This document shows positions 43,867-60,658 of a stretch of 64,000 nucleotides of DNA, piece after piece (position 1 is the first letter of the stretch; each line of letters begins with the position of its first letter). Both the position numbers and the translations under genes were made by a program. Source of the DNA: Seonamhaeicola sp. (GTDB lineage Bacteria; Bacteroidota; Bacteroidia; Flavobacteriales; Flavobacteriaceae); NCBI RefSeq assembly GCF_028281565.1, contig NZ_JANQJQ010000030.1, positions 186,001 to 250,000 of the forward strand, read 5' to 3'. The notes beneath the pieces are model-generated. The model made no database searches, was not told the origin of the DNA, and worked only from the letters and a program-made list of their open reading frames with translations.

Positions 43867-45003
43867 TTACAAAAGCCCTTTTGTGCTAGGTAAAAACATC
43901 TTATTGGCATCTCGCTTTACAGCCATTTTCATCGCTTTGGCAAAGGCCTTGAAAATACCCTCAATTTTGTGATGTTCGTTGACTCCTTCGGCTTTTACGT
44001 TTAAATTACATTTGGCCCCATCTGTAAACGACTTGAATAAGTGAAAGAACATTTCTGTTGGCATATCCCCTATTTTTTCACGTTTAAATTCAGCATCCCA
44101 TTCTAACCAGTTCCTGCCTCCAAAATCAACCGCGACCTGTGCCAGACAATCATCCATTGGCAAACAAAATCCGTAACGTTCTATTCCTAATTTATTACCT
44201 AAAGCCTTGTTGAACAATTCCCCCAAAGCTATCATGGTATCTTCAATGGTATGGTGCTCATCAACTTCTAAATCACCATTTACTTTAATGGTTAAATCCA
44301 TAGCGCCATGACGACCGATTTGATCCAGCATATGGTCAAAAAACGACAGCCCCGTGTCAATATCATTCTTACCTGAACCATCCAGATTTAATTTGATATA
44401 GATTTGAGTTTCATTGGTGTTACGTGTGATCTCCTCTACCCTATCTTCAAGTTTTAAAAACTCGTATATATCTTTCCAATCCGTGCTTGTTAATGCGATA
44501 CAATTCAAAATCTCCTGTTTGGAAGCTTCGGTTTCATCAGTCCATAAATCGGAATTCTCGGAAAGAAATATGCCCTTGGCTCCTAAGTTCTTAGCTAATT
44601 CCATGTCGGTGATTCTATCACCTAAAACAAAAGAATTGGCTAAATCATACTCTTCGGAGAAATACTGCTGCAATAAGCCTGTCCTGGGTTTTCTGGTAGG
44701 CGCATTTTCATAAGGAAACGTTTTGTCTATATGAATGGCTGAAAACACAATGCCTTCTTTGGCAAAAGCATCTATAATCTTGTTTTGAGCCGGCCAGAAT
44801 GTGTCTTCGGGAAAGGAATCAGTCCCCAAGCCGTCCTGATTGGTTACCATGACCAATTCATAATCCAATTCACCGGCAATTTTAGCCATGTATTGAAATA
44901 CCTTCGGATAAAACTCCAGCTTTTCTAAACTATCTAACTGATAGTCTACCGGTGGCTCTAAAACCAACGTGCCGTCTCTGTCTATGAATAGTACTTTTTT
45001 CAT
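43867..45003 (-). CDS. hisB: Bifunctional histidinol-phosphatase / imidazoleglycerol-phosphate dehydratase
   Basis: The 378-residue fusion has an N-terminal HAD phosphatase (Phe-Ile-Asp-Arg-Asp-Gly-Thr-Leu at residues 6-13; Leu-Gly-Asp-Arg-Ile-Thr-Asp near 126) and a C-terminal IGPD domain from about 185 with the metal-binding Phe-Phe-Asp-His-Met-Leu near 220 and Glu-His-His-Thr-Ile-Glu-Asp near 253. It performs steps 7 and 9 of histidine synthesis. The fusion is the same as in enterobacteria and common in Bacteroidota. Confidence 0.97.
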
Positions 45004-49627: not shown

Positions 49628-51664
49628 TTAAATTAATCCGTTATATTTTCTCAGAAACCATTCGGCAGACAAGCTAAAAGCCATGATTGCCAATAAGAAT
49701 TTCCAATCTATCAAAGGTATGATATTTTTGTTGCTTTTCTGAATAGAAACGTACCTATTATCGTTGATCAAATCGTCCATTAAAGCTTCTGTATTTTCAA
49801 TAAAATAACTTTTGCCGTCACTGTTAGTAGCTAACTGTTGCAGCTTTGTTACATTGGCATTTAAAAATTGTTGCTCCACGTTATATTCTAAAATAGTGAA
49901 GCTACCGGATTTGCTAATGTTTTCTTTCGTAGCGCTCACAGTAAAGCTGTATTCCGAAGGTGGTAAACTGCTCAAATCTACTTGGTAATTATTGTTCTTA
50001 AGTACGAAAGGAAATTCAATATCATTATCCGAAAACTTATCCTTTACCCTTATATTCAGTGTTTCCCGGTCGTCAAACACATAGTTTTTATCAAAGAATT
50101 GCGCATTAATGGTTATACCGCTATTCCCTATGTAAAACGATTCATAATCCAGGTTAAGCCTGCTTCTAAGTTTAGCGGAAGCCAAGTATTGAACAAGCTT
50201 GCCAATAAAATTATCAAAATCATGAAACGATTTGGAATTTAAATAACTTTGTGCCCGCCATTTCCAAATGTTTTCCCCAAATAACACCGCTTCTCTTCTT
50301 CCGTTTGTTTCAAAAGTGGCTAACAAAGGCACATTAATTGAAACATTACCCACTCGTTTATTTAATAAAGATTGATAGGGCACGTTGAATGTTAAGGCGC
50401 CATAATTAGAATTTAATGGCGGAAACGATTCAAAATCAATATCATCTATTAAAAAAGGTGAAAAGTTTGCATTGAAATCCGCCTGATATTCTTCGGTTTG
50501 TAAAACAATTTCATGGGAATAGCTTTTGTTTATTTCATTAATGAACGTTAAATCTGTTTTTGGACCGACAATAACAAATCTATTCTTATTTAGTTTGTCC
50601 AATACCTCAAAAAGCAGCTTAAACTTATTAGTTGGTTGATTAACAATAATCAATTGAAAATCATTTATTTGATTTAAAATTTCATTTGAATTTAAAATAG
50701 TTACAGAACGCTGCTCATTACTTTCTATACTCTTCTTAAATGCACCTATGTCCGGATGCAACATATCGGTTACAAAAGCTATTTTAGTTTTTTGATCAAT
50801 GACTTCAACTGCAAAATTCTTAGTGTTATTGATCATGTTTTTTTCATTCTCAAGAGGTACTAAATTCACTTTATAGCTATTGGTTCCAATAGTATTAGCC
50901 GGAAGTGTAAAGTTGATGATTTTAGAGTTATTGCTTTTAGAGAAGTTTATAGGTAGGGAATAGACCGTAGCATTGCCTTTGGTCACTTCTAACCTAGAAT
51001 TTACATTGTCATTTCCGTTATAAACCAAAATAGCCTCCACAGGAAACCTGTTTTTTAAATACGCATATTTATTTACGTTTAGTTGCTGAATTCTCAGATC
51101 GGTATACGTTACCGTATCCCCCAGGATTATTGGATAAATGGGCTGTTTATAAGTGTTGTGAGCAAACTGGTAATCATTTCCAAAGGTCTGATTTCCATCG
51201 GTTAGCAATATGGTTGGGGACACTGAAGCTTTATAAACTTGTGAAAGTTGATTAAAAGCTGCATTTATATTGGTTTCTCTTTCATTAAAGGTTAAAGAAT
51301 CTGAAGCATTCAGTGAACTTCCAAAAGTGTAGGCGGAAACATTAAACTTATTGTTTAAGTCTTTATTATCTATAAGTTCATTCACTAAACTACTTGCCGA
51401 AGCTTCCCGGTTCAAATGTTTGATTGAACTGGAATTATCTACCACAAGTACCAGGTTTGGTTTTTCCGTAAAAACCTTAATCTGTTCAAACTTTGGATTT
51501 ACTATGAGCAGTAAAATGGAGAAGACGGTTATAAACCTTAAAAAGGCAAATAAGGCATTTAGTTTAAAATGCTTTACTTTTGATTTATACCTATACTGAA
51601 AAAGCGCTATAAATAGCGCTAATATTCCAGATAGTATAATATAAATTAAGGTTTCAGCGGACAT
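49628..51664 (-). CDS. VWA-domain membrane protein
   Basis: The 678-residue protein has two N-terminal membrane segments (about 5-23 and 37-55), a von Willebrand A domain with the MIDAS motif Asp76-x-Ser-x-Ser80, a long region of beta-rich repeats (about 200-630) that lies outside the cytoplasm, and a final membrane segment near residue 655. It resembles large BatA/BatB-like proteins of Bacteroidota without the exact gene order. Likely binds a divalent metal and protein partners. It lies eight bases after fabG. Confidence 0.8.
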   Translation of the reverse strand: MSAETLIYIILSGILALFIALFQYRYKSKVKHFKLNALFAFLRFITVFSILLLIVNPKFEQIKVFTEKPNLVLVVDNSSSIKHLNREASASSLVNELIDNKDLNNKFNVSAYTFGSSLNASDSLTFNERETNINAAFNQLSQVYKASVSPTILLTDGNQTFGNDYQFAHNTYKQPIYPIILGDTVTYTDLRIQQLNVNKYAYLKNRFPVEAILVYNGNDNVNSRLEVTKGNATVYSLPINFSKSNNSKIINFTLPANTIGTNSYKVNLVPLENEKNMINNTKNFAVEVIDQKTKIAFVTDMLHPDIGAFKKSIESNEQRSVTILNSNEILNQINDFQLIIVNQPTNKFKLLFEVLDKLNKNRFVIVGPKTDLTFINEINKSYSHEIVLQTEEYQADFNANFSPFLIDDIDFESFPPLNSNYGALTFNVPYQSLLNKRVGNVSINVPLLATFETNGRREAVLFGENIWKWRAQSYLNSKSFHDFDNFIGKLVQYLASAKLRSRLNLDYESFYIGNSGITINAQFFDKNYVFDDRETLNIRVKDKFSDNDIEFPFVLKNNNYQVDLSSLPPSEYSFTVSATKENISKSGSFTILEYNVEQQFLNANVTKLQQLATNSDGKSYFIENTEALMDDLINDNRYVSIQKSNKNIIPLIDWKFLLAIMAFSLSAEWFLRKYNGLI

Positions 51665-51672
51665 TACAGATT

Positions 51673-52419
51673 TTAGGTTAGCATTCCGCCATCAACGTTT
51701 AAGGTTTGCCCAGTTACATAGGCACTCATATCACTTGCTAAAAACACACACGCATTAGCTACATCTTCAGGCGTTCCACCTCGTTTTAAAGGAATTCCGG
51801 CACGCCATCCTTTAACTACTTCTTCATCCAGTTTAGCGGTCATTTCTGTTTCTATAAAACCGGGAGCAATCACATTACTACGTATGTTTCTTGAGCCTAA
51901 CTCCAAAGCAACTGATTTTGAGAATCCAATAATACCGGCTTTAGAGGCTGCATAATTGGTTTGTCCGGCATTGCCTTTTACACCCACCACCGAACTCATG
52001 TTAATGATAGAGCCTTTACGCTGTTTCAGCATAGTACGCTGCACAGCTTTAGTCATATTGAAAACCGATTTCAAATTCACTTCAATAACGGCGTCAAAAT
52101 CTTCTTCACTGATACGCATTAACAGGTTATCTTTTGTAATTCCGGCGTTATTAACTAAAACATCAATACTCCCGAATTCTTTTACTACGTCATCGGCTAG
52201 CTTTTGTGCTTCTTCAAAACTAGCAGCATTACTTTGATAACCTTTTGCTTTAACGCCTAAAGCATTTAACTCATCTTCCAGTGCTTTTGCCGCATCAACC
52301 GACGAACTATATGTAAAGGCTACATTAGCACCTTGTTCAGCGAACACTTGTGCAATACCTTTTCCAATACCTCTACTGGCTCCTGTAATGATAGCCGTTT
52401 TTCCTTCTAATAGTTTCAT
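51673..52419 (-). CDS. fabG: 3-oxoacyl-[acyl-carrier-protein] reductase
   Basis: The 248-residue SDR has Thr-Gly-Ala-Ser-Arg-Gly-Ile-Gly near residue 12, Asn-Asn-Ala-Gly near 90, catalytic Ser near 140 (Asn-Met-Ser-Ser-Val-Val-Gly) and Tyr-Ala-Ala-Ser-Lys near 153, and Gly-Phe-Ile-Glu-Thr near 187, which is the FabG pattern. It uses NADPH to reduce beta-ketoacyl-ACP in fatty acid synthesis. It is followed by the VWA and prohibitin genes. Confidence 0.95.
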   Translation of the reverse strand: MKLLEGKTAIITGASRGIGKGIAQVFAEQGANVAFTYSSSVDAAKALEDELNALGVKAKGYQSNAASFEEAQKLADDVVKEFGSIDVLVNNAGITKDNLLMRISEEDFDAVIEVNLKSVFNMTKAVQRTMLKQRKGSIINMSSVVGVKGNAGQTNYAASKAGIIGFSKSVALELGSRNIRSNVIAPGFIETEMTAKLDEEVVKGWRAGIPLKRGGTPEDVANACVFLASDMSAYVTGQTLNVDGGMLT

Positions 52420-52516
52420 ATGTTATTTATCTAATTTCTTAAAATAGTTTATGTTCAAATATACTAATTACATGTTGTTTCAAATATAAAAACCTCACAA
52501 GATTTTCGTGATTATA

Positions 52517-55500
52517 TTATTTGGTATTAGGTGGGATCCTCTTATTTTTTCTACCTAAAAAAATAACCCCTGTTAAAACTGCAAGAAACACCAATCCTAT
52601 TACCCAATACCATATGGGATCCATACCAAAATCAATGGGAGCCTTATCCCCTACCAGGTAAAAACCTCCCCAGTAAAACGGGGCGGCTTTATAAATATCG
52701 GCCTGCTCTAAATATTGCAATTTAGCCTGTTGCAGTGCTTTTGATTTATTCATACCGCTTTTAAGATTCGTGTAAAAATACTTCATAAGTTCAGGGGTAG
52801 TCTCATCCGGCACCTCCCAACTGCTTAACAGTAAACTTTTAGTGCCTGCATATTGAAAGGCATGTCCTAAACTCATAATACCTTCACCTTTAGCTATTTT
52901 CCCGGTTCCTGTATTACAGGCACTTAATACTGTTAACTCTGTTGGAATGTTTAAAGCAAACAATTCATGGCCGTATAGATAACTATCTTCAATGGTGTCC
53001 TTGCTTTTGGTAAAATAGAGTTTGGAATTCTCCGGTCGTTCATTATCAACATCGCCATGTAAAGCTAAGTGAAGGACTTTATATCGACCAGCATTTTTCT
53101 TAAAGTTGGCTTCATCAGCATCGGAGCCAAAATAGTATTGCCCGTCAATAATATCCGCTATGGCTTTGATTTCTTTACGTGTTCCGGGAAGATCTTCTGC
53201 GGTATCTCGTAATGCTGCCAGACGTATCGGTTTAGCCTCTACAACACTTGTAGAATCTGAAAACGAAAAGGCTAAACACCCTTCTTGTTGTGCTTTCTGT
53301 TTTTTGTCCTGAAACGGCTTTAAAAGCAGTGTTGCCGAATTGGCATAAGAAATGGCATAGTCTCTTAATAAATATGGCAAATCACTTGGTGCTTCCGAAG
53401 TGTCTTCTTTAGTTAATAACAAATCAAAATTAAGATGCCACAGGGATCCATCCGGAATAATGATAAGTTCATTACCTACCAGCGTTTCTTTTAAAGGATG
53501 GATGAGTGTATTATATAATTCATTTCCTAGCTGTTTATAGGACACCAGGTCTTTAGACGTTATGGCTTTTCGAAACACTTCAATTTTATCATCAAGTTCA
53601 AGGGTTTGCAATTCTTTAAATGCAAGCTTGTTTTTTGAAATACCAAAAGCATAGGTGGTGCTATCTGTTGTGAAAAATTCTAACAGGGTGGTGTTTTTAT
53701 CAAGCCTTTCTTGAATTTCTGAAACCGTAATAACTTTATTATCGTGCTTCAACTGGAAGTATTTAGGATACTCTTGTTCCAACACTTGAGTTAAAGAGTC
53801 CTGTCTGCGATTTACATCAAAAAGCTTGTCTTCATATTCCTGCACGGTTGCCACACCAACAGAATCTTTTGTTTGCTCTGCTGTAATACATGATTGATAG
53901 TAGGCGCTATTGGATTTTAAAGCACTTTCCAGTTTTAATAGTTCCTCGGGCAATTCTGAGAAATTTTTAGCACTATGATCCAGAAGCAGGTTTTTCAGGG
54001 TATTGGATTTACTTCTCTCCGCATAGTAGCGTACTTTTTCAAGCAAAGCATAATCCTTAGTAGCTCTATACTTTAATAGTTGAGCAGTAATAGCATATGT
54101 ATACATTACCTTTACTTGTCTTGCCAGGTTTACTTTATCCTTATAACTCAGATACGATTGTCTTATATAATCCGTTAACCTATCTAAATTTCGATATAAA
54201 AAAATACTCTTGTCAAGATCTTCTGAGTTCTTACCAATCTTATAATGTTCTTGTAATGTTTTGGCCTTCCATGCAAGAGTTCTAAATAATTCTTTTAAAT
54301 TATGATAATGATCAGGATCAAATTTGTTTTTATAAATTTTAATGTATCTTTTCTTTGTGTTACACTCAATAGCTTTGTTAAAAAAAATCAAGGCTTCTTG
54401 AAATTTGTACAATTTGATATATGCTTTTCCAAAACTTATATAGAGAGAAATTAATATGTCTACATCGCTTGACGTATTTTGTATAATTTGTAAACTTTTT
54501 TGATAATACTTCAACGCTGTATCATAATCCTCTTGTTCCGTATAAAGTAACCCTAAACTCATATAAGTTCTGGCTACTCTTGAACTATTATCCCCAAAAA
54601 TGTTTCGGTTTATTTTTAAAGATTTATTAAAATATATCAATGCCTTTTTATATTCTTTTTTTTTCATTAAAACTCCTGCAGTCAAAGCATAACAAGTCGA
54701 TACCCGATAATAATTTTCTCCAAATATTCTTTTGAAAACTTCTAATGCCTTCGCGTTATAGTATAATGACTTTTCGTAATCTTTTTGATAATAATACACA
54801 TACCCAATATATTCATAAACGGTACCTAAATGATGATATCTATCACCCATATCCATACTCTTTTCTATATCCAGACTTTTTCTAAAATATTGTAATGATT
54901 TGTTATATTCACCTTTATTAATATATAGATACCCTATTCTCATATATATTCCGTATAGTTCTTCAATTTTGTTTTCTCTTTTAAAAATGGACAATGCTTT
55001 TTCTAATTGTTCCAAAGCTAAATCCAATCGTTTTGTTTCTGTATAAAGTACGCCTATATTCATATAAGCATGAGCAATATTTATATTCTTTTTATTTTTG
55101 ATTGCGCCTGCCAAAAACTTATTGTAATATTTAAGAGCAATATTATGTTTTTCCATATCCAGATAAGTGGCTCCTATCCAACCATATAAACTACTCGTAC
55201 TATAGTGTTCAACTCCATAAATTTTTATTGAAATTTCCAAGGCTTTTTCATAATAAGTAATTGCTTGCTCTAGCTTTTTTATTTTCTTATACATAAAAGC
55301 AACATCCGAATACGATTTTAAAACCCTTTTATCATATTCAGGTAATATTTTTTTGCGTATTGATAATGCTCTTTGAAGATAAGAAAGACAAATATTATAG
55401 TTTACATTATAATAATTAATAGCACCTAAATTCTCATATGCATTTGCTTCCTCCGCATTACTCTCTAAAAAAAAAGTATCACAAATACTTAAAGCCTTGT

Positions 55501-55780
55501 TTGCATTTTGTACTGATTTTTCTAATTCGTGAATTCTCCGTTGGTTTTCCGAAAGTTTATTATAACAACTCGCTACTCGTTCCCATACTTTTGCTTTTTG
55601 GTAAACAGGCAAGGCTTTTTCAAAAAGAGCAATGGATTCATCAAATTTTTTAACCGTTAATAAGGAGTCTGCTTTTTGATAGTATTGAAAAGCAATCAGG
55701 GTGTCTTTTTCTGTTTGACCAAAACATATATCAGCTGTTATTAAAGCCAATACAAACAAAAGCTTAGTAAAGGGTTTCAT
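52517..55780 (-). CDS. Exported TPR-CHAT caspase-like protease
   Basis: The 1087-residue protein has a signal peptide (about 1-22), about ten or more TPR repeats (about 30-520, for example Ala-Leu-Xaa-Tyr-Tyr-Gln-Lys-Ser-Leu), a helical linker, and a C-terminal CHAT domain with the dyad His908 (Leu-Ala-Leu-His-Gly) and Cys955 (Leu-Ser-Ala-Cys-Asn-Thr-Gly). A last membrane segment (about 1056-1076) is followed by a Lys/Arg-rich tail. So the TPR and protease parts should be outside the cytoplasm and held in the inner membrane. It lies 27 bases after the anti-sigma-like gene and 97 before fabG. Targets are not known; the domain order recalls TPR-CHAT proteases that act on regulators. Confidence 0.88.
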   Translation of the reverse strand: MKPFTKLLFVLALITADICFGQTEKDTLIAFQYYQKADSLLTVKKFDESIALFEKALPVYQKAKVWERVASCYNKLSENQRRIHELEKSVQNANKALSICDTFFLESNAEEANAYENLGAINYYNVNYNICLSYLQRALSIRKKILPEYDKRVLKSYSDVAFMYKKIKKLEQAITYYEKALEISIKIYGVEHYSTSSLYGWIGATYLDMEKHNIALKYYNKFLAGAIKNKKNINIAHAYMNIGVLYTETKRLDLALEQLEKALSIFKRENKIEELYGIYMRIGYLYINKGEYNKSLQYFRKSLDIEKSMDMGDRYHHLGTVYEYIGYVYYYQKDYEKSLYYNAKALEVFKRIFGENYYRVSTCYALTAGVLMKKKEYKKALIYFNKSLKINRNIFGDNSSRVARTYMSLGLLYTEQEDYDTALKYYQKSLQIIQNTSSDVDILISLYISFGKAYIKLYKFQEALIFFNKAIECNTKKRYIKIYKNKFDPDHYHNLKELFRTLAWKAKTLQEHYKIGKNSEDLDKSIFLYRNLDRLTDYIRQSYLSYKDKVNLARQVKVMYTYAITAQLLKYRATKDYALLEKVRYYAERSKSNTLKNLLLDHSAKNFSELPEELLKLESALKSNSAYYQSCITAEQTKDSVGVATVQEYEDKLFDVNRRQDSLTQVLEQEYPKYFQLKHDNKVITVSEIQERLDKNTTLLEFFTTDSTTYAFGISKNKLAFKELQTLELDDKIEVFRKAITSKDLVSYKQLGNELYNTLIHPLKETLVGNELIIIPDGSLWHLNFDLLLTKEDTSEAPSDLPYLLRDYAISYANSATLLLKPFQDKKQKAQQEGCLAFSFSDSTSVVEAKPIRLAALRDTAEDLPGTRKEIKAIADIIDGQYYFGSDADEANFKKNAGRYKVLHLALHGDVDNERPENSKLYFTKSKDTIEDSYLYGHELFALNIPTELTVLSACNTGTGKIAKGEGIMSLGHAFQYAGTKSLLLSSWEVPDETTPELMKYFYTNLKSGMNKSKALQQAKLQYLEQADIYKAAPFYWGGFYLVGDKAPIDFGMDPIWYWVIGLVFLAVLTGVIFLGRKNKRIPPNTK

Positions 55781-55807
55781 ATAATAAAATGTGAGTGTTA
55801 TAGGGTA

Positions 55808-56566
55808 TTACTTATTTCTTTTTAGGGCTTTTATTAATTCTGAGGCTTTACCAGTATATAAATTGTTATAAGCATTTAATTCTTTAAGAACAGGGATTGC
55901 TTTATTTACTTTATTCATTTTTACATAGGTAAGGGCTAAAAACCACCGGGCATCATCATAAAACGCACTTTCTTCATCAATAGACTGAAATACTTTGATG
56001 GCCTTGTCTTCCTTATTTACGTTAAGGTAACTATTCCCCAGGTATAATTTTAATTGATCACTTGCCGCTGTTTCCGCTTTATTTTCAAGTATCTTAATTA
56101 CTTTTTCATAGTCCTCATTCTTATAGTTCAGTGCCAATTTATTGAATGATGCATGGCTGGATATTTCTTCACCACGGGTAAGATCTTCCATAGGATATGG
56201 TACATAGTAACTTGCGAATAGATCATTTTTACCTGAACTAAGATTCTGAAAATACACCAATGATATTAAACTGATTAAAATGACAAAAACAGCTGCACTC
56301 TTCCAATTTATCCGGGGTATATTGAACGTGAGCTTTTTGTTAGCGGATTCATTTTTAAGCTCGGAATCAATATTCTGTAATTTTTTTCTAAAGGCAATCC
56401 CCTCTTTATCTTTTAAAGCAGTCTGTACCAGTCTATATTTTTCTACTTCTGACCGAAGTGCCTCATCCACCTTTAAAGCCTCCTGAAAAGATTTTAAATG
56501 GTACCCTTCGAGCTTTCCATTCAGGTAAGCATCAATTTTTTCAAATAGTTCCTGAGTTCTTTCCAT
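55808..56566 (-). CDS. Membrane anti-sigma-like protein with TPR-type C-terminus
   Basis: The 252-residue protein has a soluble N-terminal part (about 1-88) that looks like the short zinc-free anti-sigma domains of Bacteroidota (Ile-Asp-Ala-Tyr-Leu-Asn-Gly-Lys-Leu near residue 11, then helices), one membrane segment (about 90-107), and a C-terminal region (about 145-250) with TPR-like helix pairs such as Leu-Gly-Asn-Ser-Tyr-Leu-Asn. It starts 10 bases after the sigma factor gene. It is likely a membrane-bound inhibitor of that sigma factor, with TPRs outside that could contact the CHAT protein. Confidence 0.8.
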   Translation of the reverse strand: MERTQELFEKIDAYLNGKLEGYHLKSFQEALKVDEALRSEVEKYRLVQTALKDKEGIAFRKKLQNIDSELKNESANKKLTFNIPRINWKSAAVFVILISLISLVYFQNLSSGKNDLFASYYVPYPMEDLTRGEEISSHASFNKLALNYKNEDYEKVIKILENKAETAASDQLKLYLGNSYLNVNKEDKAIKVFQSIDEESAFYDDARWFLALTYVKMNKVNKAIPVLKELNAYNNLYTGKASELIKALKRNK

Positions 56567-56576
56567 GATTTACTTG

Positions 56577-57158
56577 TTATAAAAGAACTTCCCTAAACTC
56601 CTTAAACCTAGGGTCCTTCTCCGTTAATTCGATCAATTTCTTTTGGCATAAAAATTTTCGTTTTCTGGTATATCCTTCGGAAAGGTCTTTTTGCTTAGCA
56701 ATCTCTTTCAGGCTATACCCTCCGAAAAACATCAATAAAATTTCCTGACAGCCCTCCCCCAGTTTCAGCAAATATTTATGTACAAGTGATTTTCTTTCTG
56801 ACTTCACAATAATGTCCAAAGCATCATCTGTCGGGTCCTGTAGTTTCAGGAAGTCAGCATCAAATGCTTCCATTTTCCCCATACTTTTCAGCCTGTTTAA
56901 CCAAAGGTATTTACAAATACCGTAGACATAGGTTCCTAAAGCACAATCAATGTGTAAACGGTTGTTCTTTATTTTTTTAAACACAATAACCAAGGCATCC
57001 TGAAAAATGTCCCTGGCATCATCTAAATTTCCGGAATTTTTGAGAATGTAACGCGTAATACGTGGCAAATGTGTCTTGTAAAACGCTTTAATGATAACAT
57101 GATCTCCATTTTTAATGCCTTCTATAATGCTATCATTGTTGTTTTCATAAAATTTCAT
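56577..57158 (-). CDS. ECF-type sigma-70 factor
   Basis: The 193-residue protein has region 2 (about 12-95: Asp-Asp-Ala-Arg-Asp-Ile-Phe-Gln-Asp-Ala then Thr-Tyr-Val-Tyr-Gly-Ile-Cys-Lys-Tyr) and region 4 (about 125-180: Gly-Tyr-Ser-Leu-Lys-Glu-Ile-Ala near 150). It is short, without regions 1 and 3, as in extracytoplasmic-function sigma factors. It leads an operon with a membrane anti-sigma-like gene and the TPR-CHAT gene. A terminator of sucD separates it from the upstream gene, so it should have its own promoter between 57159 and 57260. Confidence 0.92.
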   Translation of the reverse strand: MKFYENNNDSIIEGIKNGDHVIIKAFYKTHLPRITRYILKNSGNLDDARDIFQDALVIVFKKIKNNRLHIDCALGTYVYGICKYLWLNRLKSMGKMEAFDADFLKLQDPTDDALDIIVKSERKSLVHKYLLKLGEGCQEILLMFFGGYSLKEIAKQKDLSEGYTRKRKFLCQKKLIELTEKDPRFKEFREVLL

Positions 57159-57260
57159 TAGTTACTTAGAGAGAGGGGTTGCTATTAATTTGTAATTATT
57201 CTTTTGAGAAAAATGTTATCTAAGACATTAATGTTTAAAAACAGCATATCCTATTAACAT

Positions 57261-57290
57261 AAAAAATCCGTTGACTATGTCAACGGATTG
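57261..57290 (-). terminator. Terminator after sucD
   Basis: On the minus strand AATCCGTTGAC, a short loop and GTCAACGGATT form a perfect stem with a following T run. It ends before the sigma factor gene. Confidence 0.85.
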
Positions 57291-57324
57291 TAAAATAAAT
57301 ATAATTTCTTATTTAAGCAAGTAC

Positions 57325-58194
57325 CTACAATACCTCGGCAACTTTTTTGCCAATTTCTGCAGGAGAATCCACTACATGAATACCACAGGCCCTCATGATT
57401 TTTTTCTTCGCCTGAGCGGTATCATCACTTCCTCCTACAATGGCTCCGGCATGTCCCATGGTACGTCCTGCAGGCGCTGTTTCTCCGGCAATAAATCCTA
57501 CAACAGGTTTCTTGCTACCACTTTCTTTATACCAATTGGCTGCATCTGCTTCTAACTGACCTCCAATCTCACCAATCATAACGACAGCTTCTGTTTCAGG
57601 GTCATTGATCAATAACTCCACGGCTTCTTTGGTAGTGGTTCCAATAATGGGGTCACCACCAATACCAATGGCTGTAGTAATTCCCAACCCTTGTTTCACT
57701 ACCTGATCTGCAGCTTCATAGGTTAGGGTCCCTGATTTTGAAACAATTCCTACTTTACCTTTTTTGAATACAAAACCAGGCATAATTCCAACTTTGGCTT
57801 CTTCCGGCGTAATAACACCAGGGCAGTTAGGGCCTATTAGACGACAATCTTTTTCCTTTATATAATCTGATGCCTTAATCATGTCAGCAACGGGAATACC
57901 TTCGGTAATTGTGATAATGACTTTAATTCCGGCATCAGCAGCTTCCATAATAGCATCGGCAGCAAATGCCGGTGGTACAAAAATTATTGAAGTATCCGCA
58001 CCAACTTCTTTTACAGCATCTTCAACCGTATTGAATACCGGTTTATCTAAGTGTGTTTGACCGCCTTTGCCTGGCGTCACACCACCCACAACATTGGTAC
58101 CATATTCTATCATTTGACCAGCGTGAAACGTACCTTCACTACCGGTAAACCCCTGTACTATGATCTTTGAATCCTTATTTACTAAAACGCTCAT
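57325..58194 (-). CDS. sucD: Succinyl-CoA ligase alpha subunit
   Basis: The 289-residue protein has an N-terminal CoA-binding Rossmann domain (Gly-Phe-Thr-Gly-Ser-Glu-Gly near residue 16; Gly-Pro-Asn-Cys-Pro-Gly near 122) and the active-site phospho-His in Gly-His-Ala-Gly-Ala near 247. It belongs to the citric acid cycle. It is the last gene of the lpx-efp cluster, 97 bases after the LpxD paralogue, with a candidate promoter of its own. Confidence 0.97.
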
Positions 58195-58228
58195 ACGTGT
58201 TTATTTTATTATGTATAAAATTGAAAAG

Positions 58229-58236
58229 CAAATGTA
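58229..58236 (-). promoter_or_regulatory. Candidate -7 box of sucD (TACATTTG)
   Basis: On the minus strand TACATTTG fits TAnnTTTG; 34 bases before the sucD ATG. No exact -33 element is seen at the usual distance. Confidence 0.4.
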
Positions 58237-58291
58237 ATTTTTTTGCAGCAATTTTTTAAGGCATTATGCCATTTATTTTAATGAAAATCTG

Positions 58292-59236
58292 CTAATTTTT
58301 TTGTTGATTTTTTAACATATCTAAAATTTCAGGAATCTTTTTGATAGCAGCTATTTCCTTGTATTTAGATCTGAAGTCATCAGCCGGTATCCCAAAGTAA
58401 CTTTTACCGCCTTCCAGGGACTTGCTCACTCCGGATTTAGCCGATATAACAGCTTTTGATCCAATAGTAATACCACTGGTGATTCCTACCTGACCCCAAA
58501 TAGTCACTTCGTCTCCAATTATTACACAACCGGCTACGCCAACCTGAGCGGCAATTAAACATTTTTTCCCAATAACCGTATCATGACCTACCTGGACAAA
58601 ATTATCAATTTTAGTGCCTTCCTTGATCCTGGTATCACCAGTAACTCCCCTGTCAATAGTGCAAGCTGCTCCCAAATCAACATTGTCTTCCAGAACAACT
58701 CTACCACAGGACAATAGCCTGTCAAAACCTTCCGGGCGCTTTTTATAATAAAAGGCATTGGCCCCTAAAACAGTTCCGGCATGAATGGTAACGTTGTCTC
58801 CTATAATGGCATCATCATAAATGCTCACATTGGAGTGAATCACACAATACTTACCAATAGTTACATTATGACCAATAAAACAATTGGGTTGGATTATAGT
58901 ACCTTCACCGATTACAGCAGAGTCTGAAATTTGACTATTGGCCGATTTAAAAGGCTTAAAATGATTGGAAAGCTTGTTGAAATCTCTAAAAGGATCATCA
59001 CTAATCAATAATGCTTTTCCTTCCGGGCACGCCACTTCTTTATTAATTAAAACTATAGTTGCTGCTGAATTTAAAGCTTTATCGTAATACTTGGGATGGT
59101 CCACAAAAACAATATCTCCCGGTTCAACTACATGAATTTCATTCATGCCCAAAACGGGAAAATCATCGTTGCCTACATAGTCGCAATTAATAAGTTGTGC
59201 TATGTCCTTTAAAGTGTGCTGCTTTGGAAACTTCAT
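58292..59236 (-). CDS. LpxD-like acyltransferase paralogue
   Basis: The 314-residue protein has the N-terminal LpxD domain and left-handed beta helix hexapeptide repeats (about 100-290), with a His in Val-Gly-His-Asp near residue 215 matching the catalytic His of LpxD. It is a second LpxD-type gene next to the true one (62058-63080). It could use a different acyl chain length or act on another amino sugar. It follows efp by 65 bases. Confidence 0.85.
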   Translation of the reverse strand: MKFPKQHTLKDIAQLINCDYVGNDDFPVLGMNEIHVVEPGDIVFVDHPKYYDKALNSAATIVLINKEVACPEGKALLISDDPFRDFNKLSNHFKPFKSANSQISDSAVIGEGTIIQPNCFIGHNVTIGKYCVIHSNVSIYDDAIIGDNVTIHAGTVLGANAFYYKKRPEGFDRLLSCGRVVLEDNVDLGAACTIDRGVTGDTRIKEGTKIDNFVQVGHDTVIGKKCLIAAQVGVAGCVIIGDEVTIWGQVGITSGITIGSKAVISAKSGVSKSLEGGKSYFGIPADDFRSKYKEIAAIKKIPEILDMLKNQQKN

Positions 59237-59301
59237 CTAGAAAAGGGTATTTTGAAAATACTTCGACTACGCTCAGTGTGACATCTTATTAAACAATACA
59301 A

Positions 59302-59868
59302 CTATTCTTTAATACGCTCCTTGTAAGTGCCTTTTTCGGTTTCAACCTTAATTTTATCACCTTCATTAATAAATAACGGTACGTTCACAATGGCACCCGT
59401 TTCAACAGTCGCAGGCTTAGTTGCGTTGGTGGCAGTATTTCCTTTAACTCCCGGTTCCGTATGAGTAACTTCCAGAATAACATTGGCCGGCATTTCTACA
59501 GAAAGTGGCAGGCCATCTTCAGAATTAATAAGAACGGTAACCACTTCGCCTTCTTTCATTAATCCCGGATTGTCAAGTGTGTTCTTTTGTAATTCAATTT
59601 GAGAATAATCCTCAGTATTCATAAAGTGATACGTTTCCCCCTCATTGTATAAGTACTGAAATTTGTGTGTTTCCACTCGAACATCATCCAGCTTGTGTCC
59701 AGCAGAAAACGTGTTATCAATAACCTTTCCTGTGGTCACACTTTTAAGTTTTGTTCTTACGAACGCAGGACCTTTACCCGGTTTTACATGTAAAAACTCA
59801 ACAATTTTATAAATATCGTGATTATATCTTATGCATAATCCGTTTCTAATATCACTTGTAGTAGCCAT
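59302..59868 (-). CDS. efp: Elongation factor P
   Basis: The 188-residue protein has the three EF-P beta-barrel domains. The loop that touches the ribosomal P-site tRNA holds Lys32 (Pro-Gly-Lys-Gly-Pro-Ala-Phe-Val-Arg), and the typical Thr-His-Thr-Glu-Pro-Gly-Val-Lys-Gly and C-terminal Gly-Thr-Tyr motifs are present. It rescues ribosomes stalled at Pro-Pro. It lies four bases after lpxA. Confidence 0.97.
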   Translation of the reverse strand: MATTSDIRNGLCIRYNHDIYKIVEFLHVKPGKGPAFVRTKLKSVTTGKVIDNTFSAGHKLDDVRVETHKFQYLYNEGETYHFMNTEDYSQIELQKNTLDNPGLMKEGEVVTVLINSEDGLPLSVEMPANVILEVTHTEPGVKGNTATNATKPATVETGAIVNVPLFINEGDKIKVETEKGTYKERIKE

Positions 59869-59872
59869 ATAA

Positions 59873-60658
59873 TTAATTTGATTTAAAATATCCTTTCATA
59901 ATACCCCGATGCGAATTCTTAATAAATTGAAGAATTTCATCGCGTTCCGGCGTTGCTTCCATTTCGGCTTCAATAATTTCCGAAGCCTGGGTATTGTTAT
60001 AATGCTTTTGATACAGGATTCTATATATATTCTGAATTTCCCTGATCTTTTCAGAAGTAAATCCACGTCTTCTTAATCCAACCGAATTAATCCCTACATA
60101 AGATAAAGGTTCACGGGCCGCTTTAACATACGGAGGTACATCTTTTCTAACTAAAGACCCTCCCGTTACAAATGCGTGATTTCCAACGGATACAAATTGA
60201 TGAACCGCTGTCATACCGGCCAGCACCACATAATCACCAATAGTTATATGGCCTGCCAATGTACTGTTATTTGAAAAAATACAGTTATTACCAACAACAC
60301 AATCGTGAGCAATATGGCAATAGGCCATAATCAAACAGTTGTTACCAATAACCGTTTTCATTTTGTCGGCAGTACCTCTATTAATAGTAACACATTCCCT
60401 AATAGTGACATTATCACCAATTTCAACCGTGGTATCTTCTCCCTGATATTTTAAATCCTGAGGAATCGCTGAAATAACAGATCCCGGGAAAATACTACAG
60501 TTTTTTCCAATACGGGCCCCTTCCATAATGGTCACGTTACTACCTATCCAGGTACCTTCTCCGATGACCACATTATTATCAATGGTTGCAAAAGGTTCTA
60601 TGACTACGTTTTTAGCAATTTTAGCGCCAGGGTGAACGTATGCAAGTGGTTGGTTCAT
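59873..60658 (-). CDS. lpxA: UDP-N-acetylglucosamine acyltransferase
   Basis: The 261-residue protein is a beta-helix of hexapeptide repeats (about 1-190) with the catalytic His in Ala-His-Asp-Cys near residue 122, and a helical C-terminus. It transfers a 3-hydroxyacyl chain from ACP to UDP-GlcNAc, the first step in lipid A synthesis. It lies between lpxC-fabZ (gap 2) and efp (gap 4). Confidence 0.97.
   Translation of the reverse strand: MNQPLAYVHPGAKIAKNVVIEPFATIDNNVVIGEGTWIGSNVTIMEGARIGKNCSIFPGSVISAIPQDLKYQGEDTTVEIGDNVTIRECVTINRGTADKMKTVIGNNCLIMAYCHIAHDCVVGNNCIFSNNSTLAGHITIGDYVVLAGMTAVHQFVSVGNHAFVTGGSLVRKDVPPYVKAAREPLSYVGINSVGLRRRGFTSEKIREIQNIYRILYQKHYNNTQASEIIEAEMEATPERDEILQFIKNSHRGIMKGYFKSN

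Follow-up and report, generated by a model that had tools for sequence, protein, structure and literature searches.

An exported TPR-CHAT protease as the predicted site-1 protease of a transmembrane anti-sigma factor in Seonamhaeicola

Introduction

Type III-E CRISPR loci bring together a tetratricopeptide repeat (TPR)-CHAT protease, a sigma inhibitor and an extracytoplasmic function (ECF)-like sigma factor in the Csx29-Csx30-CASP-sigma set. In two reports on these systems, the trigger is a target RNA and the inhibitor Csx30 is a proven substrate of the protease; the cut falls behind L407 in S. brodae, and between positions 427 and 429 in D. ishimotonii (PMC10028731, PMC9729208). Here, a locus of related composition is described from Seonamhaeicola sp., in a window of 64,000 nucleotides (contig NZ_JANQJQ010000030.1, positions 186,001 to 250,000; coordinates below are those of this window). 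On its minus strand, in the order of transcription, stand the genes of an ECF sigma factor, a single-pass anti-sigma-like TPR protein (hereafter Mid) and an exported TPR-CHAT protease (hereafter CHAT), with intergenic gaps of 10 and 27 bases. Judging from sequence comparisons and structure models, it is likely that CHAT would serve as the site-1 protease of its anti-sigma factor Mid, which it would cut after Arg131.

Such a system would join those that release an anti-sigma factor through regulated proteolysis, and would add a protease of a new type to them. The well-studied ones include RseA-DegS-RseP, MucA-AlgW and RsiW-PrsW, PrsW being the site-1 protease of RsiW; they share with the present locus a single-pass anti-sigma factor of similar helical cytoplasmic fold, the presence of a site-2 protease and a cut in the extracytoplasmic linker, which is predicted here. 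The protease proposed here is unlike DegS or PrsW: it is a cysteine protease of clan CD, its gene adjoins that of its presumed substrate and it would have a P1 residue of its own. In Bacteroidota, FecR-type and zinc-finger anti-sigma factors are encoded in one operon with their sigma factors and cross the membrane once; Mid differs from them in its TPR outer part, in the linked protease and in that no zinc motif was seen by eye in its sequence. The protease belongs to the CHAT/caspase-like fold family of separase, gingipain R and MALT1, with which it has in common the His-Cys dyad and a P1-Arg preference that is predicted here from conserved acids; it differs from them as a bacterial, exported enzyme with a presumed sigma-inhibitor substrate and with Met and Lys variants.

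Results

Predicted architecture of Mid and CHAT

Mid (252 residues, 55808..56566) is modelled with a predicted cytoplasmic anti-sigma domain of three helices (residues 1-75, 56342..56566), one transmembrane helix (residues 88-109, 56240..56305), an extracytoplasmic linker holding the predicted cut site (residues 110-137, 56156..56239) and extracytoplasmic TPR helices supported by weak TPR matches and the model (residues 138-251, 55814..56155). The N-terminus is placed inside because lysine and arginine are richer before the transmembrane helix than after it, with means of 3.8 and 1.5 in the 15 flanking residues over 164 Mid-like proteins. Since a Foldseek search with whole Mid gave TPR and other repeat proteins among the 50 matches listed, the N-terminus was modelled separately. 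Its predicted fold resembles four different anti-sigma factors, RsiW, RslA, MucA and RseA, none of these single matches reaching significance. A profile of the Mid N-terminus compared with the PDB sequences gave nothing relevant and did not find any Csx30 chain, to which no dedicated comparison was made. From the modelled fold, Mid is probably the anti-sigma factor of the adjoining sigma factor.

CHAT (1087 residues, 52517..55780) carries a signal peptide-like segment (residues 1-22, 55715..55780), a TPR region with strong matches and approximate boundaries (about residues 34-475, 54356..55681), a CHAT domain (residues 750-1045, 52646..53533; domain search, E 2.6e-62) and a C-terminal membrane anchor (residues 1054-1077, 52550..52621), both membrane segments being called by a crude hydropathy rule. 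The catalytic residues, His908 (53057..53059) and Cys955 (52916..52918), align in all 223 CHAT proteins compared, and the protein is predicted to be a protease with an intact dyad. With a hydrophobic segment at the N-terminus and another at the C-terminus, the latter just ahead of a basic tail, it should face outwards. A single-sequence search of the PDB with the CHAT domain gave a chance match only, so that a profile of 43 CHAT domains was needed; with it, Csx29 was detected as a homologue (E ~1e-8). The preliminary description of the locus, made from the letters alone, had proposed the gene set with its gaps, the anti-sigma-like N-terminus and TPR-like outer part of Mid, the dyad, signal peptide and anchor of CHAT, and an arrangement of both proteins on the same side of the membrane. 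The gene calls, the models and the predicted topologies, both extracytoplasmic, bear these proposals out. Its view that the similarity to type III-E systems is one of logic only proved too modest, given the homology to Csx29.

Linkage of sigma, Mid and CHAT genes

The source genome (5.27 Mb) contains three CHAT genes in total, and all three adjoin a sigma and a Mid gene, in different orientations: sigma, Mid and CHAT are codirectional in the window (pair C4) and stand in a row at a second locus (C38, L005), and CHAT is convergent to sigma-Mid at the third (C30, L004). The Mid of the window is 22% and 26% identical to the other two, and the genome holds two pairs of Arg type and one of Met type, the types being named after the linker residue described below.

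CHAT genes were then listed in 59 genomes (this one and its relatives) and in a sample of 296 genomes from the phylum. The 116 CHAT-centred regions retained comprise 26 with every CHAT of the relatives outside the source genome and 90 with the top matches by E-value among the phylum matches listed; a CHAT gene was called in 115 of them, L074 being the exception. A Mid with an identifiable linker residue accompanies CHAT in 52 of these 115 regions (19 of 26 from the relatives, 33 of 89 from the phylum), always within 6.1 kb and in 22 cases within 200 bp. The sigma gene lies immediately 5' of Mid on the same strand in 153 of 158 cases. Besides, Met-type Mids were used to scan named genomes. Relatives are encoded by 140 of the 145 stretches matched, and the best 80 (L161-L240) were retained; all of these are of Met type and the genera recognised are Flavobacteriaceae. 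As no Met-type Mid was called at L231, 79 loci were counted here (later profile counts 80 loci), with sigma upstream in 79 of 79 and CHAT in 74, in 70 cases within 200 bases. Among the five loci lacking CHAT, L210 ends 742 bases past Mid and the other four are from Aequorivita; in one of these Aequorivita genomes (probably G033), CHAT lies on a separate contig (L059) from sigma-Mid (L067), and the residue pair still matches.

The trio is non-accidental, since all three CHAT genes of the genome adjoin sigma-Mid and the linkage recurs across the phylum. The first refuting condition of the preliminary description, a lack of such linkage in related genomes, is thus clearly contradicted. The single operon that it had proposed holds for the window and fails as a general rule, Arg-type pairs being mostly otherwise arranged: CHAT is codirectional and at most 200 bases downstream in 7 of 67 Arg-type pairs versus 78 of 86 Met-type pairs.

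A linker residue co-varies with CHAT

The linker of Mid contains a near-invariant residue followed by a small one, Arg131 and Gly132 in the window, which the linker alignment designates as the predicted P1-P1' bond (56171..56176). In 142 aligned Mids, the Arg131 column separates two groups: all 85 members of a subfamily marked by a DPGLP motif have Met, and 53 of the other 57 proteins have Arg. At the position that follows, 54 of these 57 have Gly, Ser, Ala or Asn, and the DPGLP subfamily has Gly or Ser. The weighted frequency in the Arg131 column is 0.91, compared with 0.54 for the runner-up letter across columns 108-132, and the residue lies 20-29 residues past the transmembrane helix in 151 of 158 Mids. 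Three related loci (L260-L262) form a Lys type. The linkers of the four exceptions among the 57 (L090, L105, L116 and L132) are long or unusual, and the membership of these proteins is doubtful; L116 (168 residues) fell under the length filter of the pair comparison, the other three entered it with no residue aligned, outside the Arg, Met and Lys counts, and four Mids with incomplete matches (L009, L034 and L035, with duplicates) are absent from sequence set A1.

In 159 CHAT-Mid pairs, the linker residue was compared with the CHAT column of Asp992 (W988+4; 52805..52807). The combinations were Arg-Asp in 67, Met-Glu in 85, Met-gap in one, Lys-Glu in three and no residue with Asp in three, so that the column holds Glu in 85 of 86 Met-type CHATs (one gap) and in all three of Lys type. 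Unlinked CHATs have Asp in 63 cases and Glu in one, the lone Glu being the Aequorivita case above. A quick maximum-likelihood tree was built with the co-varying columns removed and with support from the Shimodaira-Hasegawa-like approximate likelihood-ratio test (SH-aLRT) only; it kept 76 of 223 CHATs after thinning of Balneola-like near-duplicates, most Met-type and most unlinked sequences. The Met clade has a support of 100, as has the Lys clade, which is nested at 99 beside Arg-type CHATs. By parsimony on this tree, the linker residue and the CHAT residue switch on the same two branches and nowhere else. The chance that two random changes fall on those two branches is ~4e-4 when weighted by branch length, a rough figure as both branches are long.

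A scan of all CHAT columns was made as well. Conservation of 90% or more in Arg-type proteins is seen in 30 of 314 columns, and only four of the 30 are altered in both switched clades: Glu870 (53171..53173), Ser953 (two positions ahead of the catalytic Cys), Asp992 and Met999. When Arg-linked and unlinked CHATs are pooled (130 proteins), ten columns are conserved to at least 97%. Eight of the ten are unchanged in at least 95% of the members of both clades, and the other two, Glu870 and Asp992, are kept in no member of the Met and Lys clades. This unbiased scan is more telling than the branch-probability figure. Glu870, an otherwise invariant acid lost in Met- and Lys-type CHATs, is a candidate anchor of a P1 Arg.

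In clan CD enzymes with P1-Arg preference, the P1 Arg is held by an alpha1 acid (gingipain R Asp163, MALT1 Asp365, separase Glu917) together with further acids in L4 and L5/alpha4 (MALT1 Asp462 and Glu500, separase Asp1082), according to PMC4357240 and PMC4626109, the separase residues of the latter deriving from a homology model. Glu870 and Asp992 stand in segments that seem to correspond to those of this P1 pocket. A direct equivalence between Asp992 and separase D2151 was considered and dropped, as PMC9729208 equates this P1-Arg residue with K670 of the S. brodae enzyme. Counted on the CHAT profile alignment, K670 stands eight past the S. brodae Trp and four beyond the Asp992 position, where the S. 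brodae protein has Ser.

By the crude hydropathy rule used for the CHAT of the window, an N-terminal hydrophobic segment is found in 83 of 86 Met-type, 3 of 3 Lys-type and 61 of 67 Arg-type linked CHATs, and a C-terminal transmembrane segment in 85 of 86, 3 of 3 and 39 of 67, respectively; taken together, 155 of these 156 proteins have one or the other.

Genomes without CHAT and a second anti-sigma family

Six Mid loci belong to genomes without a CHAT match at E 1e-10 (G340, G304, G277, G133, G222 and G129). At three of them (L244, L245 and L246) the linker residue is neither Arg, Met nor Lys; L245 keeps DPGLP but has Val, and L245 and L246 are from one genus. Fisher's test gives p 2.9e-5 for residue loss in the absence of CHAT, a value which ignores relatedness and locus choice and on which no conclusion is based. 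At L242 (12650-13420), about 5 kb away from the pair and among kinase-, PP2C- and FHA-like genes, a frame that looks caspase-like (C14, by eye) and has an N-terminal hydrophobic segment is a candidate stand-in for CHAT. At L243 (6705-7673), in a genome with no CHAT found, a 323-residue frame joins the sigma start to the later part of Mid, and a gene with a DTGAS motif is kept.

At several CHAT loci without a TPR-type Mid, a sigma gene is accompanied by one for a single-pass, zinc-finger-like anti-sigma protein; its outer part reads as beta-sandwich-like and its NCBIfam anti-sigma matches are weak. With a model built from four members, 5 of 296 genomes yielded six genes in total, all of them neighbours of a CHAT gene to which they are convergent. 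All six, including the four that built the model, have Arg-Ser in the linker, and a further look-alike (L095) has Arg-Ser-Gly. The Arg-small motif therefore recurs with a different sensor domain. Beside one such locus (L108, 1-597), an exported-looking tandem-repeat protein has repeats like LGSRYGFLRSNDQIE; as these contain the Arg-Ser of the presumed cut site, the protein might be a substrate that is cut at several places.

The sigma gene and neighbouring genes

The sigma factor (193 residues, 56577..57158) has PDB relatives that include AlgU/sigma-H and SigW. Sigma70_r2 and TIGR02937 (sigma70-ECF superfamily) pass their cut-offs, r4_2 and r4 falling slightly under theirs; domain searches place region 2 at about 56883-57083 and region 4 at about 56637-56783. 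With Sigma70 regions 2 and 4 only in about 190 residues, the protein is an ECF sigma factor, as first described. Upstream of sigma at Met-type loci, a promoter search returned a TTTG-N19-TATCTTTC-like pattern, which we take to be similar to the housekeeping consensus of Bacteroidota; sigma autoregulation was rejected for these loci, where no sign of a sigma-specific promoter was seen upstream of sigma. At the window locus, nothing like the TTTG-N19-TATCTTTC pattern was seen by eye upstream of sigma.

Genes at related loci may include sensors or targets. Of the 80 Met-type loci of the named genomes, 37 have a 376-residue lipoprotein-like gene upstream of the trio and in the same direction, and 29 have a 250-residue one nearby, mostly two to five genes upstream of Mid; both are candidate sensor or target genes. 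At L050, L057, L062, L063 and L065, CHAT (about 850 residues) is 4-6 kb from sigma-Mid and beside a PKD-like protein of about 650 residues (by eye), and all of these except L062 also have a 147-148-residue protein with a DTGAS motif like that of retropepsin-type aspartic proteases. At L014 (2318-3739, G032), CHAT is divergent from sigma-Mid and pilin- or secretion-like genes (by eye), possible targets, follow Mid. Convergent or tandem CHAT genes were seen at L041 (475-5827, two) and L075 (4621-12901, three), where the profiles called neither Mid nor sigma within the region retrieved.

Discussion

From the genes present, their linkage, the folds and topologies predicted for them, and the co-variation of the near-invariant linker residue with two CHAT residues, all computed here, the following course may be proposed. 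The N-terminal helical domain of Mid would bind the ECF sigma factor and hold it at the inner face of the membrane, with the TPRs outside. An extracytoplasmic stimulus, presumably sensed by the TPR array of CHAT, by the TPRs of Mid or by both, would activate CHAT, which would cut the Mid linker at the Arg131-Gly132 bond, at a distance of about 20 residues from the membrane. The cut would leave an outer stub of about 20 residues and thus fits further processing by a site-2 protease, of which the genome encodes one M50 family member. The stub would presumably pass to this protease and to cytoplasmic proteases, and the sigma factor would be freed for its regulon.

That CHAT might cut the anti-sigma protein had been suggested in the preliminary description; the comparisons made here add a specific site to this suggestion, and a test by co-variation, which it passes. 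Several observations weigh against the proposal. The co-variation amounts to two independent events. A TPR-type Mid with the linker residue was not seen in 63 of the 115 CHAT-centred regions, and three linked loci (L090, L105 and L132) have a Mid-like protein without the residue. On the side of the enzyme, Asp992 is a candidate pocket residue that stands at W988+4, whereas D2151/K670 is at Trp+8. Around Glu870, Lys-type sequences are difficult to align, with an acid one or two positions earlier, and in the S. brodae enzyme, whose cut follows L407, the alpha1 acid is seemingly retained, as read at the edge of a local alignment. Besides, an Arg-Gly in a loop could be a docking element instead. 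Lastly, the residue is retained at three of the six loci from genomes without CHAT (L241, L242 and L243), which would be unexpected for a residue that served CHAT alone. The loss of CHAT looks recent, since two of the three look decayed: no sigma gene was called at L241, and sigma and Mid are broken into one frame at L243; the pair at L242 is intact. On balance the loci without CHAT lean towards a role of the residue tied to CHAT, not cleanly.

This retention, together with the use of other site-1 proteases in well-studied systems, such as DegS for RseA (PMC10028731), would suit an arrangement in which CHAT and Mid form a signalling complex, another periplasmic protease makes the cut, and Arg docks a CHAT that acts on another target. 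We regard it as unlikely, because the linker residue co-varies with two near-invariant CHAT residues in two clades, and because a replacement of Arg by Lys or Met, with a small residue next in nearly all, is the pattern expected of a change in P1 preference. CHAT could also be an effector of the pathway, for instance in self-killing or defence, travelling with the sigma pair that controls it, as CHAT proteases elsewhere are effectors that cleave gasdermins (cited in PMC9729208) and as CHAT often lies outside the operon, where a regulated target could be. This reading leaves the co-variation unexplained; nearly all paired CHATs have the membrane segments that should place their action outside, defence models matched nothing at the locus except TPR, and we hold it to be quite improbable. 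That the grouping is a genomic coincidence, or that Mid is a TPR scaffold and no anti-sigma factor, seems very improbable: the single anti-sigma matches are not significant, the NCBIfam anti-sigma model does not touch the Mid of the window and TPR profiles match promiscuously (283 of 296 genomes), but sigma almost always stands directly 5' of Mid, one genome holds three divergent sigma-Mid-CHAT copies and the predicted N-terminal fold matches four different anti-sigma factors.

With cleavage of Mid by CHAT retained as the preferred explanation, the comparison with type III-E systems can be made more precise. The CHAT domains of Csx29 and of the window protein are homologous, and the present system would work in a way similar to the Csx29-Csx30-sigma set. 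Here, unlike in type III-E, the protease is exported and membrane-anchored, the inhibitor is a single-pass membrane protein with TPRs, and the predicted P1 residue is Arg. A search for a CRISPR-like array found no direct repeats of at least 22 bases within 300 bases between positions 44000 and 64000 of the window. The neighbours at 49628-60658, read by eye, are fabG-, sucD-, lpxD-, efp- and lpxA-like genes and one for a membrane protein; none resembles a Cas7-11/gRAMP-like effector, although no search with Cas models was made. Lacking CRISPR parts and being membrane-bound, the system is not filed under type III-E. In the open-licence literature, subscription journals and preprints lying outside this scope, no report was found of a CHAT protease acting on a membrane anti-sigma factor; the literature that came up on CHAT domains together with anti-sigma factors concerned type III-E CRISPR.

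Tentatively, and with more doubt than conviction, one may imagine that Bacteroidota run parallel envelope-to-nucleoid pathways in which each exported CHAT has a private code, Arg, Lys or Met with a small residue next to it in the juxtamembrane linker of its own anti-sigma factor, which insulates paralogues within one cell, that this code is portable across TPR and beta-sandwich-like anti-sigma factors, and that the type III-E cassette is a cytoplasmic offshoot. The natural Arg, Lys and Met variants are ready-made comparisons of specificity. If cleavage of Mid by CHAT holds true, bacteria would have a new class of signalling protease, of caspase/separase type and acting at site 1 of a transmembrane anti-sigma factor, many exported CHAT proteins of Bacteroidota would gain a substrate with a single predicted bond, and the Csx29-Csx30-sigma cassette of type III-E CRISPR would be set in a wider context.

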